A stretch of DNA of 11,375 bases from Magnetovibrio sp. (GTDB lineage Bacteria; Pseudomonadota; Alphaproteobacteria; Rhodospirillales; Magnetovibrionaceae), in contig JAESUA010000424.1 in assembly GCA_016763255.1 (NCBI GenBank), forward strand, positions 1-11,375, written 5' to 3'. Within the stretch, counting starts at the first letter, position 1. Every line of letters starts with the position of its first letter. Position numbers and translations under genes: made by a program. The notes below the pieces were generated by a model. The model searched no databases and was not told the origin of the DNA. It saw only the letters and a program-made list of their open reading frames with translations. This document shows, one piece after another, positions 5,161-11,375 of this stretch.

Positions 5161-6894
5161 GTGAGCGATCAGCTGGAATTATTGGTCGAAATGGGGCGGC
5201 ATTTTGCTGCAACCCAGGATATTGAATCCACGATGGACCGGGCCTTGGAACGCATCACCGCATTGATCGGTGCCGAGGGGGGGGGCTTGTTTGTACTGGA
5301 GGGCGGGCTCGATGATGGGCAACTGGTCTGTCATGCCTGCCATGGCCCGGTGGATGTGAAAGGTTTGTCGATTCCGGCCGGTACCGGCATCGTCGGGCGG
5401 TCGGTGGCGAACAATGCCTCCGAAATGGTGCGCGATGTGCAAAACGACCCCAGCTTCAATAAGGACCTCGACAAACAATTCAATTTCACCACCCGTTCGA
5501 TCCTCTGTGCGCCGCTTTCGGTCAAAGATGAACGCCTGGGTGCGATTGAGGTGATCAACAAAACCAGTGACGACGGTTTGTTTTCAGATGACGACCTAAC
5601 CCTGCTTGAAGCGTTGGCGGCGTCTGCAGCGTTGGCGATCTCCAACGCACGCATGGCAGCTGAATTGGCGGAAAAAGAAGTGATGCGCCGGGAACTGGAA
5701 CTGGCGGCGGAAATTCAGCGCGGCTTGCTGCCCGATCCGCGGGGCGGTGATTTCCCGGTGAGCGGCGTCAATCGTCCCGCCCGTGTGGTGTCGGGCGATT
5801 TTTTCGATTTTTATACTTTATACGATGGGCGCATCGCGTTCACCTTGGCCGATGTGTCGGGCAAGGGCATGAATGCGGCGTTGTTGATGGCCAAGACCGC
5901 CAGCCTGTTTCGGTGCTTGGGCAAGGATGATTTGCGCCCCGGCCGCCTGCTGCAGCGCATCAATGCCGAAGTGTGTGAGACCTCCTTACGCGGTATGTTC
6001 GTGACCATGGTTGCGGGTACTTATGATCCGGCCACCGGCCGCGTGGTGCTGGCCAATGCCGGCCACGAACCGCCTCTGCTGCACAGCCTGGATGATACGT
6101 TCAAAGCCTTAGAAGCCACCGCCCCACCGGTTGGCATTCCGACGGAACTGACCGGCAGCGGCCCGGTACCCGAAGAGGTTTTGTACCTGAACGGTGGGGC
6201 CCTCTACATTTTCACCGACGGCGCAACCGAAGGCTATATTGCACCCGGCGAAGAGCTTGGTTCTGATGGGTTTATGGAGATGATCCGTAGCGGCGGCGCA
6301 CAAGGGCTTGCCCCCCAGGCGCGCATCAATCGGGTGGCGGATCGCTTAAGCGGATCGGGGGTGGTTTTGCGTGACGACGTCACCGTTTTGGTGATTGATG
6401 ATGCCAAGCCCTTGCAAGCGCGAATAAAACGCGGCGATACTGGCCTTGGTGTTGAGCCCATAAGGGATGAGGCCTTGGATAAACTTGTTGAAGGTTCCAT
6501 CTGCGTATTGAGTGTGCCGGCGCGCCCTCAAAGTTTGAAAATGGTGCGACGCGCGGTTGATCAGGCCGCCGTGACTTGTGGGTTCTCCAAAGAACAGTGC
6601 CAGGATTTGGTGTTGGCCGTGGACGAAGCGTGTCAAAACGTGGTGCGCCATGCTTATGCTGAGTCCGACGGCGATATGATCGTTGATATCCGCCGCGAAG
6701 GGGGCACCTTTACGGTGCTGATCCGCGATTTTGCCGCCCCTGTGGACGTGGATAAAATCAAACCGCGTGATTTGGATGATGTGCGTCCGGGTGGTTTAGG
6801 GGTTCATTTCATTCGCGAAGTCATGGATGACGTAAAACACTTAACCCCGCCCGATGGACAGGGCAACTTGTTGAGATTACAAAAAGCCATCTAA
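5161..6894 (+). CDS. GAF sensor - PP2C (SpoIIE/RsbU) phosphatase - RsbW-like kinase fusion
   Basis: Encodes 577 residues with no membrane span or signal, so cytoplasmic. Residues about 1-165 form a GAF sensor domain, linked by a helix (about 165-190) to a SpoIIE-type PP2C phosphatase (about 195-415). Metal-site motifs are VSGDFFDF (D213, D216), LADVSGKGMNAALL (D231), NAGHEPPL, IFTDGATE (D353) and RDDVTVL (D405, D406). Residues about 440-577 are a GHKL/RsbW-like ATPase with the N-box DEACQNVVRHAY (E489, N493) and the G2 box GGLGVHFI. The G1 box reads DFAAPVD, with alanine where glycine is usual. Such fusions can both phosphorylate and dephosphorylate a STAS partner, here most likely the next gene, 18 nt downstream. 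The start is GTG with AGGGGG 7 nt upstream. A run of nine G (5277-5285) lies within codons 39-42. Confidence 0.9.
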   Translation: MSDQLELLVEMGRHFAATQDIESTMDRALERITALIGAEGGGLFVLEGGLDDGQLVCHACHGPVDVKGLSIPAGTGIVGRSVANNASEMVRDVQNDPSFNKDLDKQFNFTTRSILCAPLSVKDERLGAIEVINKTSDDGLFSDDDLTLLEALAASAALAISNARMAAELAEKEVMRRELELAAEIQRGLLPDPRGGDFPVSGVNRPARVVSGDFFDFYTLYDGRIAFTLADVSGKGMNAALLMAKTASLFRCLGKDDLRPGRLLQRINAEVCETSLRGMFVTMVAGTYDPATGRVVLANAGHEPPLLHSLDDTFKALEATAPPVGIPTELTGSGPVPEEVLYLNGGALYIFTDGATEGYIAPGEELGSDGFMEMIRSGGAQGLAPQARINRVADRLSGSGVVLRDDVTVLVIDDAKPLQARIKRGDTGLGVEPIRDEALDKLVEGSICVLSVPARPQSLKMVRRAVDQAAVTCGFSKEQCQDLVLAVDEACQNVVRHAYAESDGDMIVDIRREGGTFTVLIRDFAAPVDVDKIKPRDLDDVRPGGLGVHFIREVMDDVKHLTPPDGQGNLLRLQKAI

Positions 6895-6912: not shown

Positions 6913-7245
6913 ATGGAAATCAGCATTAGCGAGCAAGACGGCGTGCAGGTTGTCGCGGTCTGTGGCGAGGTCGATTTAAGCACCTCACCCCAGGTGCGTG
7001 AAGCGCTGCTGGGGTGCATCAAAGGCGGCAGCAGCGTGGTGGTAAACCTGTCGGCGGTTTCTTACATCGACAGTTCGGGGGTGGCTTCGTTGGTGGAAGC
7101 CTTCCAAACCGCAAAATCCAAAGGCTTGGGCTTTGCCTTAGCGCAAATCAGCGAAACCCCGATGCGCGTTTTGAAACTTGCGCGTCTCGATCAGGTGTTT
7201 GTGATTCACGACACCGTCGATGAAGCCGTCTCGGCAGTGGCTTAA
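6913..7245 (+). CDS. STAS-domain anti-sigma factor antagonist (RsbV/SpoIIAA-like; possibly MlaB-like)
   Basis: A 110-residue single STAS domain. The core carries VVVNLSAVSYIDSSG, with the phosphorylatable serine at S54 (or S55) in the DSSG motif after a beta strand. In RsbV/SpoIIAA this serine is phosphorylated by an RsbW-type kinase and freed by a PP2C phosphatase. The protein encoded just upstream carries both activities, so it is the expected partner. ATG 6913 has AGGGAAG just upstream. The TTG at 6898 would lie before that site. The gene is also the nearest upstream neighbour of an MlaE-type permease, and MlaB of the E. coli Mla transporter is a STAS protein. A role as transporter subunit is therefore an open alternative. 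No sigma factor is in view. Confidence 0.88.
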   Translation: MEISISEQDGVQVVAVCGEVDLSTSPQVREALLGCIKGGSSVVVNLSAVSYIDSSGVASLVEAFQTAKSKGLGFALAQISETPMRVLKLARLDQVFVIHDTVDEAVSAVA

Positions 7246-7247
7246 TC

Positions 7248-7289
7248 TCCTGTATTCCTTTATATTCCGGGCTTAAGGAAAATTCAGGA
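7248..7289 (+). promoter_or_regulatory. Imperfect hairpin covering the mlaE ribosome site
   Basis: TCCTG (7248-7252) pairs with CAGGA (7285-7289) and TTCCTT (7255-7260) with AAGGAA (7275-7280), with a small internal loop between and a 14-nt apical loop. The outer 3' arm contains AGGA, the likely Shine-Dalgarno of the permease gene starting at 7302. No T run follows, so it is not a standard terminator. It might stabilise the RNA end, limit read-through, or tune permease translation. Confidence 0.35.
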
Positions 7290-7301
7290 ACTTAATTTTA
7301 G

Positions 7302-8117
7302 ATGGTCGAAGGTTCGCACCAAAACCTCGCAGCACGTTTTTTTGAGAAAGTCGGACGCATCTGCGTCTCCGCTCTTGAGGAAATGGGGCGGCACGGCGTG
7401 ATGATCGGCGAAAGCTTTCATTGGCTGTTCCTGGGCCCGGGGATGAACCAGCCGGTGCGCCTTGGTGCGGTGTTCACCGAGATGATGGAAATCGGCGTGC
7501 GGGCCATTGGCATCATTGGCATCATGGCCGCCGCCATCGGCGCGATGTTGGCGATCCAGGGTATTTACAGTCTGAAAATTTTTGGTGCCGAAGGCCATGT
7601 CGTGGTCGGCGTGGCATTTTCTATGGTGCGCGAATTTGCCCCGCTGATCACCGGTATTTTGGTCGCAGGACGTTCCGGTTCAGCCCTTTCGGCGCGATTG
7701 GGAACCATGAAAATCAACCAAGAACTTGATGCCCTGGAGGTTATGGGCATCAATCCGGTGCGGTTTTTGGTGGTGCCGTCCCTGTTGGCGTCGTTGGTGA
7801 TGGTGCCGGTGCTGACCTTTATGTCGATGGTTTTAGGGTTATATGCGGCGGCGCTGTACGTCAACACCGCGCTGGGCATGTCCATGGCGGCCTTTTTCGA
7901 TCAGACCATCGACGTTTTGTCGGTGGATGATTTGATCCATGGCCTGAGTAAGGCCGCTATCTTTGGTGTGCTGTTCGCGCTGATCGGCGTGCTCAACGGC
8001 TTTTTAGTTAAAGGTGGCGCGGAAGGCGTGGGTAAAGCCACCACCCGTTCGGTGGTGCAGTGCATTAGCGCCATCGTGGTGACCGACATGTTATTCGCCC
8101 TTGTGGCGACGTTGTAA
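7302..8117 (+). CDS. mlaE: MlaE-family ABC transporter permease for lipid transport
   Basis: A 271-residue inner-membrane permease of the MlaE/TTG2B family, which pairs with an MlaF-type ATPase and an MCE protein to move phospholipids between the membranes. The family signature spans residues about 110-160: EFAPLITGILVAGRSGSA, then LGTMKINQELDALEVMG and NPVRFLVVP. About five hydrophobic segments are visible (roughly 65-88, 105-125, 157-187, 215-236 and 250-271), preceded by an amphipathic N-terminus. CAGGAA lies 11 nt before ATG 7302, somewhat far, and is partly held in a predicted hairpin. The stop is 10 nt before the ATPase start. The gene follows the STAS gene by 56 nt and may share its transcript. 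Confidence 0.93.
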   Translation: MVEGSHQNLAARFFEKVGRICVSALEEMGRHGVMIGESFHWLFLGPGMNQPVRLGAVFTEMMEIGVRAIGIIGIMAAAIGAMLAIQGIYSLKIFGAEGHVVVGVAFSMVREFAPLITGILVAGRSGSALSARLGTMKINQELDALEVMGINPVRFLVVPSLLASLVMVPVLTFMSMVLGLYAAALYVNTALGMSMAAFFDQTIDVLSVDDLIHGLSKAAIFGVLFALIGVLNGFLVKGGAEGVGKATTRSVVQCISAIVVTDMLFALVATL

Positions 8118-8127
8118 GGGGGGGGCG

Positions 8128-8964
8128 ATGAGCGACACAGAAAAACCAAATGCAAAAAATGTCATCGAGGTCCGCGGCCTCGTCACCCATTATGGCACCC
8201 GGCAAATCCTCAATGGCGTTGATGTTGACATCAATGAGGGTGAAATCATGGTCATCATGGGCGGGTCCGGTTCGGGCAAGTCGACATTTTTGCGTCACTT
8301 GATGGCCTTGCAGCGCCCAACATCGGGGGTCATCAAGATCCTCGGCCAAGACGTTTGGAAGTTGCCGCAAAAAAAACTGTTCGAGCTGCGCAAAAAACTC
8401 GGTGTGACGTTTCAGGGGGGGGCGCTATTTAGTTCCATGACGGTGGGCGAAAACATCATGCTGCCGCTTTACGAACATACCAAGCTTGACCGCTTGACCA
8501 TGCAAATCATGGCGCGCATGAAACTTGAAGTGGTCGATCTGGCGGGCTTTGAAGATTTGATGCCGTCCGAGCTGTCCGGCGGCATGGTCAAGCGTGCCGC
8601 GGAGGCCCGTGCGGTGATCATGGACCCGCGCATTTTGTTTTTTGATGAACCCTCGGCCGGACTCGACCCGGTGGTATCGTCGCAACTGGATGATTTGATT
8701 TTGCGTTTGCGCGATGCCATGGGCATGACCATCTGCGTGGTGACCCATGAGTTGGAAAGTGCGTTTAAAATTGCCGACCGCATCACGGTGCTGGACAAGG
8801 GCAGTATCTTGTTCACCGGCACGGTCGAAGAACTGCGCAATCACCCCAGTGATCGCATTCAAAATTTGCTCAATCGCCGTTCGGAGGAAGCGGAAATCGA
8901 TGCCGACGAATACCTGCGCCGCCTGACCGGCGACAAAGAGGAAGCTGAGGGAATGCCACGATGA
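8128..8964 (+). CDS. mlaF: MlaF-family ABC transporter ATP-binding protein
   Basis: A 278-residue ABC ATPase that drives the MlaE-type permease. Visible motifs: Walker A GGSGSGKST (45-53), Q-loop Q96 in TFQGGALF, signature ELSGGM (148-153), Walker B ILFFDEP with D173 and E174, D-loop SAGLDP and switch histidine H207 in VVTHELE. The C-terminal ~50 residues are acidic and polar (SEEAEIDADEY), a tail seen in alphaproteobacterial members. ATG 8128 is chosen over an upstream ATG at 8101 because the latter would overlap the permease by 17 nt, while AAGGGGGGGG directly precedes 8128. The stop overlaps the next start as ATGA. The tract CAG-GGG-GGG-G at the Q-loop contains eight consecutive G. Confidence 0.95.
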   Translation: MSDTEKPNAKNVIEVRGLVTHYGTRQILNGVDVDINEGEIMVIMGGSGSGKSTFLRHLMALQRPTSGVIKILGQDVWKLPQKKLFELRKKLGVTFQGGALFSSMTVGENIMLPLYEHTKLDRLTMQIMARMKLEVVDLAGFEDLMPSELSGGMVKRAAEARAVIMDPRILFFDEPSAGLDPVVSSQLDDLILRLRDAMGMTICVVTHELESAFKIADRITVLDKGSILFTGTVEELRNHPSDRIQNLLNRRSEEAEIDADEYLRRLTGDKEEAEGMPR

Positions 8965-9920
8965 ATACGGCAAAAATCAATTACGTCGCAGTGGGGGCGT
9001 TTGTCACCGTAACGCTGGTGGGGATCGTTGTGGCCATCGCCATGCTGACGGGACGCACCGGGGCGACCGACGCTTATCATGCGGTCTACAAAAACGTCAC
9101 CGGGGTGAAGTTTGGAACGCAAGTGCTCTACGAAGGTTATCCCATTGGCCAGGTCGAAACCGTGACCCCGATCCCGGATGGCGGGTCAATGAAGTTTCGC
9201 GTTGATTTTGAAGTCAATGAAGGCTGGAAAATTCCCGATGACAGCATCGCGCGCATCGGCGCATCGGGTTTGTTGTCGGCGATCACCATCAACATCGATG
9301 CCGGCACCAGCCCCATCGCGCACAAGCCGGACACCCAAGTCATCGCCCAAGAAGCTTCTGATCTGTTCAAGGTCATGTCGGGGGTTGCCGGGGACATTTC
9401 AAATTTGGCCGAAAATGATTTGCGCCCGCTTTTGGCGACCATCAACACCGCGGTCGGCAATTTTGCCATCACCGTGGAGCTGGTTGGTGAACTGCTTGAT
9501 GAAGACGGTCAGCGCATGATCAAACAGTTTGCCAATGTGGCCGATGATTTGTCGGGGTTGGTGGTGGATTTGAACAAGCGCCTGCCGCGCATTGCTGAAA
9601 GCGTCGATACCTCAACCGCCAATTTTGCCACCTTGTCGCGTGATTTGTCGCACACCCGGGGCAAGCTCGATCAGTTGTTGGGCACGGCGGATGATTTGAT
9701 GGCCAACAGCAACGCCATGGTCGCTGAAAACCGCGCAGAGGTGCGCAAGTCGATAAAAGATTTGAAACACGTGACCGATTCTTTGGCCCGTCACATTGAT
9801 TCGGTGAACCAAAACATTGAAGGCACGGCGCGCAACATGTATGAGTTCTCGCGTGAAATTCGCCAAAACCCGGGGCTTTTGCTGTCCGGCACCGCACCTC
9901 AGGAAAAAGGCAAAAAATAG
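8961..9920 (+). CDS. mlaD: MlaD-type MCE-domain protein with long helical tail
   Basis: A 319-residue protein with one N-terminal membrane span (about 8-30), a single MCE domain (about 38-116, including VTGVKFGTQVLYEGYPIGQV and the ASGLLSAITINI strand) and a long, mostly helical region (about 132-303) ending QNPGLLLSG. MCE proteins form hexameric rings that carry lipids from the MlaFE complex. E. coli MlaD is only about 180 residues, so the extra ~140 helical residues are the main difference. They could form a tube across the periplasm, as in PqiB. The start overlaps the ATPase stop, with GAGGGAA 7 nt upstream. The downstream lipoprotein is a likely partner at the outer membrane. No gene for a soluble MlaC carrier is in the cluster. 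Confidence 0.92.
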   Translation: MNTAKINYVAVGAFVTVTLVGIVVAIAMLTGRTGATDAYHAVYKNVTGVKFGTQVLYEGYPIGQVETVTPIPDGGSMKFRVDFEVNEGWKIPDDSIARIGASGLLSAITINIDAGTSPIAHKPDTQVIAQEASDLFKVMSGVAGDISNLAENDLRPLLATINTAVGNFAITVELVGELLDEDGQRMIKQFANVADDLSGLVVDLNKRLPRIAESVDTSTANFATLSRDLSHTRGKLDQLLGTADDLMANSNAMVAENRAEVRKSIKDLKHVTDSLARHIDSVNQNIEGTARNMYEFSREIRQNPGLLLSGTAPQEKGKK

Positions 9921-9936
9921 GTTGGTAAATGATGCC

Positions 9937-10539
9937 ATGAAATACCGGATGAAACTGACCATTCCTGCCTTTGTTTTCGTTGGATTGGTGAGCGCGTGTG
10001 CCACCCCGCCACCTGCGCCCGAAGACGTATTTTACCGATTAAGCCCCCGCGCCGCTGCACCCGCCGCCGCTATGGCTTTGTTGGACGGCGTGGTCGAGGT
10101 CGAACGTTTCACGGCCTCAGGCTCGCTCGCCAGCCGACCTTTGCTGTTTTCCGAGCCCGGCTCCAACGCGGTGAGCGAATATCATTATCACTACTGGATC
10201 GAGGCACCGCCGATTTTGCTGCAAAATGCCTTGGTGTCTTACATGCGTTCGGCGCGCGTCTCTGACCTCGTGGTGACGCCTGATATGCGGGCGCGCCCCG
10301 ACTACACCGTGCGCGGACGTTTGATACGTCTGGAAACCGTGCAGGGCGAAACATCCGTTGGCGTGGCGGAGCTCGAATCGAGTTTGCGCCGTGAAAGCGA
10401 TGGCGAACTTTTGGTGTTGGGTGAATATCGCGCCGAAGTGGTGTCAGGTTCCAATGGCATCAAAACCGATGCGGCGGCGATTGAAAAAGCCGTCAACAAT
10501 GCTTTTCAACAATTTGTCTCGGATATCAAAAAACAATGA
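9937..10539 (+). CDS. PqiC-like ABC transport auxiliary lipoprotein
   Basis: A 200-residue lipoprotein. The signal peptide (basic MKYRMK, hydrophobic core) ends in the lipobox VSAC, with lipidated Cys at residue 21, followed by a proline-rich linker (ATPPPAPEDVFYRLSPR). The rest resembles the ABC_trans_aux family (DUF330, PqiC/YmbA-like), with the typical FYRLSP opening and a C-terminal alternation of strands ending in a helix (AAIEKAVNNAFQQFVSDI). Such proteins sit in the outer membrane and cap the PqiB tube. Here it would partner the MlaD-type protein 16 nt upstream. ATG 9937 gives a proper signal peptide. Its ribosome site is weak (GGTTGGTAA), so coupling is possible. The stop overlaps the next gene as ATGA. 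Confidence 0.82.
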   Translation: MKYRMKLTIPAFVFVGLVSACATPPPAPEDVFYRLSPRAAAPAAAMALLDGVVEVERFTASGSLASRPLLFSEPGSNAVSEYHYHYWIEAPPILLQNALVSYMRSARVSDLVVTPDMRARPDYTVRGRLIRLETVQGETSVGVAELESSLRRESDGELLVLGEYRAEVVSGSNGIKTDAAAIEKAVNNAFQQFVSDIKKQ

Positions 10540-11375
10540 GCCGTCCCCCTAAAAAACATCGCTCGTCTGGCCGCAATTTCAAAGGGCGTCGCAAGCGTTC
10601 GGTGGCCCAGGTGCCCAAGGAAGCCGTCGAGGTGACCATCTCTGGCCTCGGGGCACAAGGCGATGGTCTGGCCAAGGCAGAGATTCAGACGCGCTCGCAA
10701 AATCTCTATATTGCGGGGGCCTTACCCGGCGAGACCGTGCGGGCACAAACCGTCGCCAAGCGCGGTGATGGCCTGGTCGCTCAATTGTTGGAGGTGATCA
10801 CCCCCAGTACCCAGCGTGTTGAACCCAATTGCCCTTATTTTGCCAGCTGTGGTGGCTGCGCCCTTCAACACTTGGATCCGAAGGCTTATGGCCCGTGGAA
10901 ACGTGAACGTGTTGCCCGTGTATTGGCCCAGCGCGGTTTTGGTGATGTGGACGTTTTTGATCCGATCTTGATTGGCGAGGGCACGCGTCGGCGCGTCACC
11001 TTTAGTGCGCTCAAACGCGGCAAGCATGTGACCTTTGGTTTCAACGCACGCTCCAGCCATGACCTCGTTGCGATCGATAAATGTCCTTTGCTGGTGGATG
11101 GACTGAACACTTTGATCGCACCGCTGAACACTGCCATGGCGGGCATCTTAAAAGATGGCGCGCGGGCGCGGGTTTCGATCACCGGCTGTGACAACGGTGC
11201 CGATGTGCTGATCGAAGCCGGTGCCGCACCGGGTCTAGAAGCGCGTGAAGCGCTTGCCGCATTTGTGCAAAATACCAGTGCCGTGCGCCTGGGCTGGAAA
11301 GAAGAGGGCTTGGCCCCTGAACCCATCGCCCAGGAAGTTGCACCCTTGATCTATCTCAGCGGTGTGCCGGTGGAA
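10536..11375 (+). CDS. Class I SAM-dependent RNA (uracil-5-) methyltransferase, RlmD/TrmA family, 3' end cut off
   Basis: Partial: 280 codons are visible with no stop before the right edge. The N-terminus is strongly basic (residues 1-23, many Lys/Arg). A TRAM RNA-binding domain follows (about 29-90, with GLGAQGDGLAK and ALPGETVRA). Next come the [4Fe-4S] cysteines C99, C105 and C108 in CPYFASCGGCALQH, with the fourth probably C183 in DKCPLL. That combination marks RlmD/RlmC/TrmA-type m5U methyltransferases, which methylate uridine in 23S rRNA or tRNA. The SAM-binding Rossmann domain and catalytic cysteine would lie beyond the window. Which of RlmD, RlmC or RumA-like specificity applies cannot be told here. 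ATG 10536 overlaps the lipoprotein stop, suggesting co-transcription with the lipid transport genes, although the functions are unrelated. Confidence 0.88.
   Translation, partial: MSRPPKKHRSSGRNFKGRRKRSVAQVPKEAVEVTISGLGAQGDGLAKAEIQTRSQNLYIAGALPGETVRAQTVAKRGDGLVAQLLEVITPSTQRVEPNCPYFASCGGCALQHLDPKAYGPWKRERVARVLAQRGFGDVDVFDPILIGEGTRRRVTFSALKRGKHVTFGFNARSSHDLVAIDKCPLLVDGLNTLIAPLNTAMAGILKDGARARVSITGCDNGADVLIEAGAAPGLEAREALAAFVQNTSAVRLGWKEEGLAPEPIAQEVAPLIYLSGVPVE

Follow-up and report, generated by a model that had tools for sequence, protein, structure and literature searches.

Does a phosphorylation switch control the activity of a bacterial lipid transporter? The question is raised by a locus in an 11,375-nucleotide stretch of Magnetovibrio sp. 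DNA (contig JAESUA010000424.1; the whole stretch is called the window here), in which a kinase/phosphatase fusion gene (K) and a STAS gene (S) precede the genes for an MlaE-family permease (E), an MlaF-like ATPase (F), an MlaD/MCE protein (D) and a PqiC-like lipoprotein (A). We consider it likely that K-S-E-F-D-A make up one functional unit, a partner-switching module with an Mpc/Mla-type lipid ABC transporter as its output. Beyond this single locus, we lean towards the view that the unit represents a multi-phylum class of MCE transporters, in which an RsbV-type STAS protein takes the place of MlaB and is served by an RsbW-type kinase of its own and by an RsbU-type phosphatase whose sensor domain can be swapped, with an ABC ATPase as output and intermembrane lipid flow under reversible phospho-control.

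Organization of the locus

An earlier reading of this DNA from its letters alone (the sequence-only reading) had placed a STAS gene 56 nt upstream of mlaE, with a DSSG motif and next to a kinase/phosphatase fusion, in a cluster holding MlaE, MlaF and MlaD homologues and no separate mlaB. The coordinates bear this out, and no separate mlaB was found within the window.

5161..6894, + strand: K, 577 residues, with GAF (residues 20-160), SpoIIE/PP2C phosphatase (222-412) and GHKL HATPase_c_2 kinase (452-575) domains by Pfam
6913..7245, + strand: S, STAS protein of 110 residues, RsbV/SpoIIAA-type by sequence and predicted fold
7069..7080, + strand: DSSG motif of S (D53-S54-S55-G56) with the predicted phospho-acceptor Ser54 (codon 7072-7074)
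7302..8117, + strand: E, MlaE-family permease (PF02405), MpcE-like, 271 residues, no fused STAS
8128..8964, + strand: F, MlaF-like ATPase, 278 residues
8905..8925, + strand: central part of the extension at the C terminus of F (D-E-Y262-L-R-R-L266), corresponding to E. coli MlaF Tyr261/Leu265
8961..9920, + strand: D, MlaD/MCE protein (PF02470 at residues 38-115) with a long C-terminal part, 319 residues
9937..10539, + strand: A, ABC_trans_aux (PqiC-like) lipoprotein (PF03886; lipobox by eye), 200 residues

All of these genes lie on one strand, and the successive gaps from K through S, E, F, D and A to the RlmD-like gene that follows are 18, 56, 10, -4, 16 and -4 nt. Family assignments are clear for the phosphatase (PF07228, 129.9 bits) and kinase (PF13581, 96.2 bits) domains of K, for S (PF01740, 77.6 bits; TIGR00377 ant_ant_sig, 76.1 bits against a cut-off of 53.45), for E (226.5 bits) and for A (37.8 bits against a cut-off of 26). 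A promoter/terminator scan returned three promoter-like matches, against a shuffle mean of 1.6, and nothing resembling a terminator between S and E. Among the window open reading frames (ORFs) and their Pfam matches, no mlaC is present in the operon.

Linkage of the module and the transporter within the order

Co-occurrence of kinase/phosphatase and STAS genes with the transporter, proposed as a check by the sequence-only reading, was surveyed with S, E and K as queries in 150 genomes of the order, that of the window included; the counts are raw and take no account of kinship. An E-type permease is found at 7e-81 or better in 99 of the 150 genomes, the next-best matches lying at about 1e-47. 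Directly upstream of it an S match occurs in 98 of the 99 (gap between matches of -3 to 103 nt), and upstream of S a K match, as phosphatase and/or kinase gene, in 97 of these 98; both misses, one lacking S and one lacking K, fall at contig starts. At one further locus (G019, L140) the kinase part was found and PP2C was not, and two loci (L117 and L162) are cut by contig ends. Over all 150 genomes, E and S occur together in 98, neither is present in 48, E stands alone in one (the contig start) and K-S occurs without an intact E in three, one of them at a contig end. The K-S-E-F-D-A order is seen wherever the fetched regions are long enough to show it, apart from isolated cases such as L193, whose fetched region yielded no F, D or A.

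Around the canonical MlaE/MlaF paralogues of the order, 21 stretches yielded no match to S, to the kinase domain or to D. With 98 of 99 Mpc-type MlaE genes against none of 21 canonical stretches, the STAS-MlaE adjacency is hence not a product of chance. In the window's own genome another MlaE occurs together with an MlaF-like ATPase, and the 3.6 kb around it gave no STAS match.

Distribution beyond the order

The adjacency, whose absence in relatives the sequence-only reading had named as telling against its proposal, is in fact kept across orders and phyla. Among 289 genomes drawn from the class, an E match at 1e-50 or better is present in ten, including that of the window, and seven of the nine others show K (or PP2C)-S-E-F, D and A being present too in six; the contig of one of the seven (L203) ends within F. 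Between the GHKL gene and mpcE, L203 also presents two tandem STAS genes, both with DSSG (L203:1279-2096). In genome G328 (L346:2466-4873) an operon of STAS, GAF-PP2C and GHKL genes is convergent with the adjoining mpcEFDA, and the linkage of K-S to the transporter has therefore outlived a rearrangement; the STAS protein has 243 residues here, with a long C-terminal tail. Genome G381, the last of the nine, has a fused form: a long MlaE whose N-terminal domain aligns with fused STAS domains and by itself scores below the Pfam STAS threshold.

A set of named genomes was represented by the best 80 of at least 569 loci; it overlaps the order set (e.g. L254, L258) and comprises many metagenome bins, the taxon labels of which may be wrong. 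Where at least 2.5 kb is available upstream of E (66 loci), S is adjacent in 60, fused in two and neither in four, and the kinase is adjacent in 55 of the 60, with PP2C as well in 53 of those. The whole cassette occurs under titles from Gammaproteobacteria, Myxococcota, KSB1, Calditrichaeota and Hydrogenedentota, and also in records that carry no metagenome-bin label (Paramagnetospirillum caucaseum, Tahibacter aquaticus); at the Acidobacteria and Nitrospirota loci, kinase-S-E-F-D was seen and PP2C or A was not found.

The genes are joined in different ways. Phosphatase and kinase share one ORF at 83 of 105 order and class loci and occupy two at 18, one domain being missing from the stretch at the remaining four; in the named set they form one ORF at 36 loci and two at 23. 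A Hydrogenedentota bin encodes the GHKL kinase and STAS as a single ORF of 262 residues directly before mpcE (L321:5177-5962). Over 56 loci, sequence identity in E correlates with that in the kinase (rho 0.73) and the phosphatase (0.82) about as strongly as with that in F (0.76), and the parts have thus diverged together.

Catalytic and sensor domains

The catalytic motifs of both enzymes are intact. The PP2C motifs SGDF, DVxGKG, TDG and DDxT are each conserved in at least 96 of 101 phosphatase domains, and all 104 kinase domains retain the glutamate and asparagine of the N-box as well as GGLG. The sensor domain of the phosphatase is exchangeable: eight phosphatases, picked since most of them had no or only a weak GAF match, were scanned and carry HDOD (four), HAMP (one), FHA-GAF (one) or GAF (two) inputs, HDOD replacing GAF in the gammaproteobacterial cassettes L286, L291, L294 and L297.

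The STAS protein and its predicted acceptor residue

Residues D53, S54, S55 and G56 are invariant in all 105 order and class S sequences, and DSSG is present in all 64 named S proteins whose locus includes a kinase match; the corresponding motif of E. coli MlaB is DTGG. In the predicted model of S (mean predicted local distance difference test score of 97), Ser54 is the first residue of helix 54-69, and the fold is closest to RsbV/SpoIIAA-type chains, with which it aligns over residues 1-110. MlaB is a minimal STAS protein missing the last strand and helix (PMC7367683); the model of S has a C-terminal helix (102-109).

Fusions provide a second view of STAS proteins associated with MlaE. Relatives of the fused STAS-MlaE protein occur at 1e-60 in 91 of 192 class genomes, and 81 of the 91 matches extend into the N-terminal part, as read from the match table. 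In a panel of 31 (the best 30 of the 91 plus L211), Pfam STAS_2 is recognized in 26 and Pfam STAS in 18, the others being placed by alignment alone; the residue aligned with the predicted acceptor is Thr in 27 and Ser in four. Such fusions being common in the class, and MpcE of Brucella being fused as well, STAS domains are physically tied to MlaE-type transporters. A divergent RsbW-type HATPase_c_2 gene lies beside a fused-type MlaE with DTNG at two loci (L234:806-1276 and L249:1273-1818), and in certain genomes the fused type, too, may be paired with a kinase.

The contrast of DSSG and DTAG was considered as a marker of kinase linkage and rejected, because seven of eight separate STAS proteins lacking a kinase keep DSSG (three of the eight loci, L298, L316 and L332, have less than 2.5 kb upstream); it splits fused from separate STAS only. 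A Lysobacterales bin encodes a separate STAS with DSSA (L308:3792-4211) and has no HATPase_c_2 match above 30.6 bits.

Candidate docking features of the ATPase

Two E. coli studies describe MlaB as required for the transporter complex, with Thr52 near the centre of its contact with MlaF; T52E weakens MlaF binding, and T52A abolishes ATPase activity with binding kept (PMC7367683, PMC5016091). In one of them, MlaB contacts the helical subdomain of one MlaF and the C-terminal extension (Tyr261, Leu265, Leu266) of its neighbour (PMC7367683). E. coli MlaF carries this extension and the helical-subdomain motifs KLExV and EHTxL. The extension is present in 101 of 102 order and class F proteins with complete ends, in none of 21 canonical STAS-less MlaF proteins and in none of 30 ATPases that partner a fused STAS; for KLExV the counts in these three groups are 84, none and none, and for EHTxL 81, none and seven. 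Y262, L263 and L266 are each found in at least 90% of 64 F sequences. The extension pattern was defined by eye and then relaxed to allow one more residue, which raised the count from 99 to 101 of 102; the fused partners score 0/30 under both patterns, and the 21 canonical proteins were scored with the relaxed one. Under the first pattern, the named set has the extension in 65 of 67 loci with separate STAS, three of six with no STAS and none of two fused; named loci that have it include L288 and L324, where no STAS was found, and the contig-edge locus L295. The extension and helical motifs are the main evidence, if indirect, that S may dock on F. MlaF chains rank near the top of the solved relatives of F, and the best match, which we take to belong to an MlaFEDB-type complex, aligns into the extension.

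A model for the proposed switch and its alternatives

In the mechanism we infer for S-F binding, phosphorylation, the sign of the switch and the cargo (lipid) and direction of transport, S would dock on F and thereby allow assembly and transport; the GHKL domain would phosphorylate Ser54 and break the S-F contact; and the PP2C domain, set by the input of its GAF sensor, would strip the phosphate and restore docking, assembly and transport. What the sequences show directly is the anatomy of such a system: linkage that is conserved, catalytic motifs that are intact, an acceptor motif that does not vary, docking features on F, parts that diverged together and sensors that are exchanged. The proposal of the sequence-only reading, that the STAS protein binds MlaF and is gated by the neighbouring kinase/phosphatase, is now the best-supported account and is borne out in part, by the conserved adjacency and by both halves of the MlaB docking site known from E. 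coli on the ATPase; that reading had overlooked the Mpc-like nature of the transporter, the RsbV type of the STAS protein and the exchangeable sensor.

Several observations weigh against a functional unit of this kind. The kinase/phosphatase-STAS module persists in genomes G035 and G036, neither of which has an intact transporter; an internal deletion in G036 (L213:4353-5032) has left the beginning of mpcE and a fragment of mpcA beside K and S, remnants which show that the transporter was cut down there. Coevolution of S and F, as mutual information with average product correction, does not rise above that of the periplasmic control pair S-D and has the lowest top values of five S pairings, in a sample of 101 non-redundant rows (122 complete loci of 185; effective number of sequences about 60). 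S is RsbV-like and not MlaB-type in sequence and predicted fold, and it fails the curated MlaB model NF033618 (21.3 bits against a cut-off of 90). In Marinicella and Alcanivoracaceae no kinase was found beside S-E-F-D-A, although these genomes encode unlinked HATPase_c_2 proteins that score 71-72 bits. Finally, several genomes hold additional STAS genes elsewhere, either orphans resembling S in type or other short ones. The sequence-only reading had counted on there being no mlaB elsewhere, and this part of it stands in the near-complete genomes G003, G007 and G008, where every other listed STAS or STAS_2 match falls in a frame of 509-636 residues and the mpc-linked STAS is thus the sole short one; it does not extend to the window's own genome, which is 67% complete, or to other relatives with further short STAS frames (e.g. 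G001, G002, G005). In the window's own genome, two other STAS matches lie in a SulP-transporter-like ORF of 360 residues (by eye) and in a frame of 776 residues.

A second stand-alone STAS gene (IDSSG), with no kinase seen beside it, was noted in eight examined cassette-bearing genomes (L215-L222), several of these genes lying near an ispD/ispF-like gene (by eye). This orphan STAS is possibly a second target of the same kinase.

The persistence of K-S in G035 and G036, the RsbV-like character of S, the orphan STAS genes and the missing S-F signal all favour an explanation in which K-S controls some other target (a transcription factor, an anti-sigma partner or another enzyme) and is co-transcribed with the transporter as both answer envelope stress, S being no transporter subunit. 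We regard this as unlikely, because Mpc-type MlaE lacks STAS or K only at contig starts in the 99 genomes, the linkage is kept in the rearranged G328, the F extension and helical motif track a separate STAS partner, and STAS is elsewhere fused to MlaE; moreover, none of the eight window proteins scanned against family models belongs to a sigma factor family. S might instead be a constitutive, MlaB-like structural subunit, its phosphorylation not regulating transport and the kinase/phosphatase acting mainly on other STAS proteins. The kinase-less loci of Marinicella and Alcanivoracaceae would suit this idea, as would the statement in a 2020 study that there was no experimental evidence of MlaB phosphorylation (PMC7367683). 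It is nonetheless improbable in view of the linkage of K in the order and of the kinase in the named set, and of a predicted acceptor that is always Ser in STAS proteins from loci that include a kinase, against the prevalent Thr of the fused type. That the adjacency is hitch-hiking in a conserved neighbourhood and devoid of functional meaning is barely credible, for although some neighbours may travel along, given the single strand, the short gaps and the RlmD-like gene trailing in many relatives, the cassette occurs in distant phyla, its PP2C sensor has been swapped, its kinase is fused at some loci and split at others, and in one genome it has been rearranged into a convergent layout.

Relationship to known systems

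The functional unit proposed here combines features of systems that have been treated separately. With RsbU/RsbW/RsbV and SpoIIE/SpoIIAB/SpoIIAA it shares a PP2C phosphatase, a GHKL kinase and a DSSG-bearing STAS protein, the predicted fold of which is closest to theirs. The outputs of those switches are mostly sigma factors or regulators, whereas the linked output in the window is an ABC lipid transporter, with no sigma factor among the proteins scanned there. As in E. coli MlaFEDB, a STAS protein accompanies MlaE and MlaF, and F shares the C-terminal extension and helical motifs with E. coli MlaF; unlike the short MlaB with Thr52, for which the available parts of the published accounts name no kinase (PMC7367683, PMC5016091), the STAS protein of the window has 110 residues, DSSG and a linked kinase/phosphatase, and its operon lacks mlaC. 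The closest organization is that of mpcEFDA of Brucella abortus, the Mla-Pqi chimeric (Mpc) system, with the same E-F-D-A order, long MCE protein, PqiC-like lipoprotein, MlaE/MlaF-type ABC pair and permease-associated STAS, according to the part of its description at hand (PMC12436622). In Brucella the STAS domain is an N-terminal fusion on MpcE and the same part of the description mentions no kinase or phosphatase for it (PMC12436622), whereas that of the window is a separate, RsbV-like, K-linked gene. The fused-STAS partner ATPases without the extension come from class genomes, the Brucella ATPase lying outside that set. By the tested features, the system is neither MlaFEDB with MlaB nor a Brucella-type Mpc with fused STAS, and lies between both.

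That MlaB is phosphorylated was hypothesized in a 2016 study (PMC5016091), and a 2020 study described the matter as still undetermined (PMC7367683). Our literature search, mostly judged from titles and the starts of abstracts and thus not proof of absence, found no report tying a partner switch to an Mla, Mpc or MCE transporter, and no kinase for MlaB. The question becomes directly testable because one conserved operon offers candidates for the kinase, the phosphatase, the acceptor residue and the docking site alike. If the proposed switch is real, partner switching would extend from regulators to the direct control of a membrane transporter, and the conserved cluster would suggest that cells turn outer-membrane lipid traffic on and off through phosphorylation of a pump subunit.

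Flanking genes

The operon is followed in the window by one further gene on the same strand, and a gene of this type follows it in many relatives.

10536-11375, + strand: RlmD-like rRNA methyltransferase gene, start only, overlapping the last 4 nt of mpcA

An Rfam scan returned nothing at gathering scores. Upstream, on the opposite strand, lies a cytochrome-oxidase cluster, with subunit III recognized by Pfam and the remaining genes by eye.
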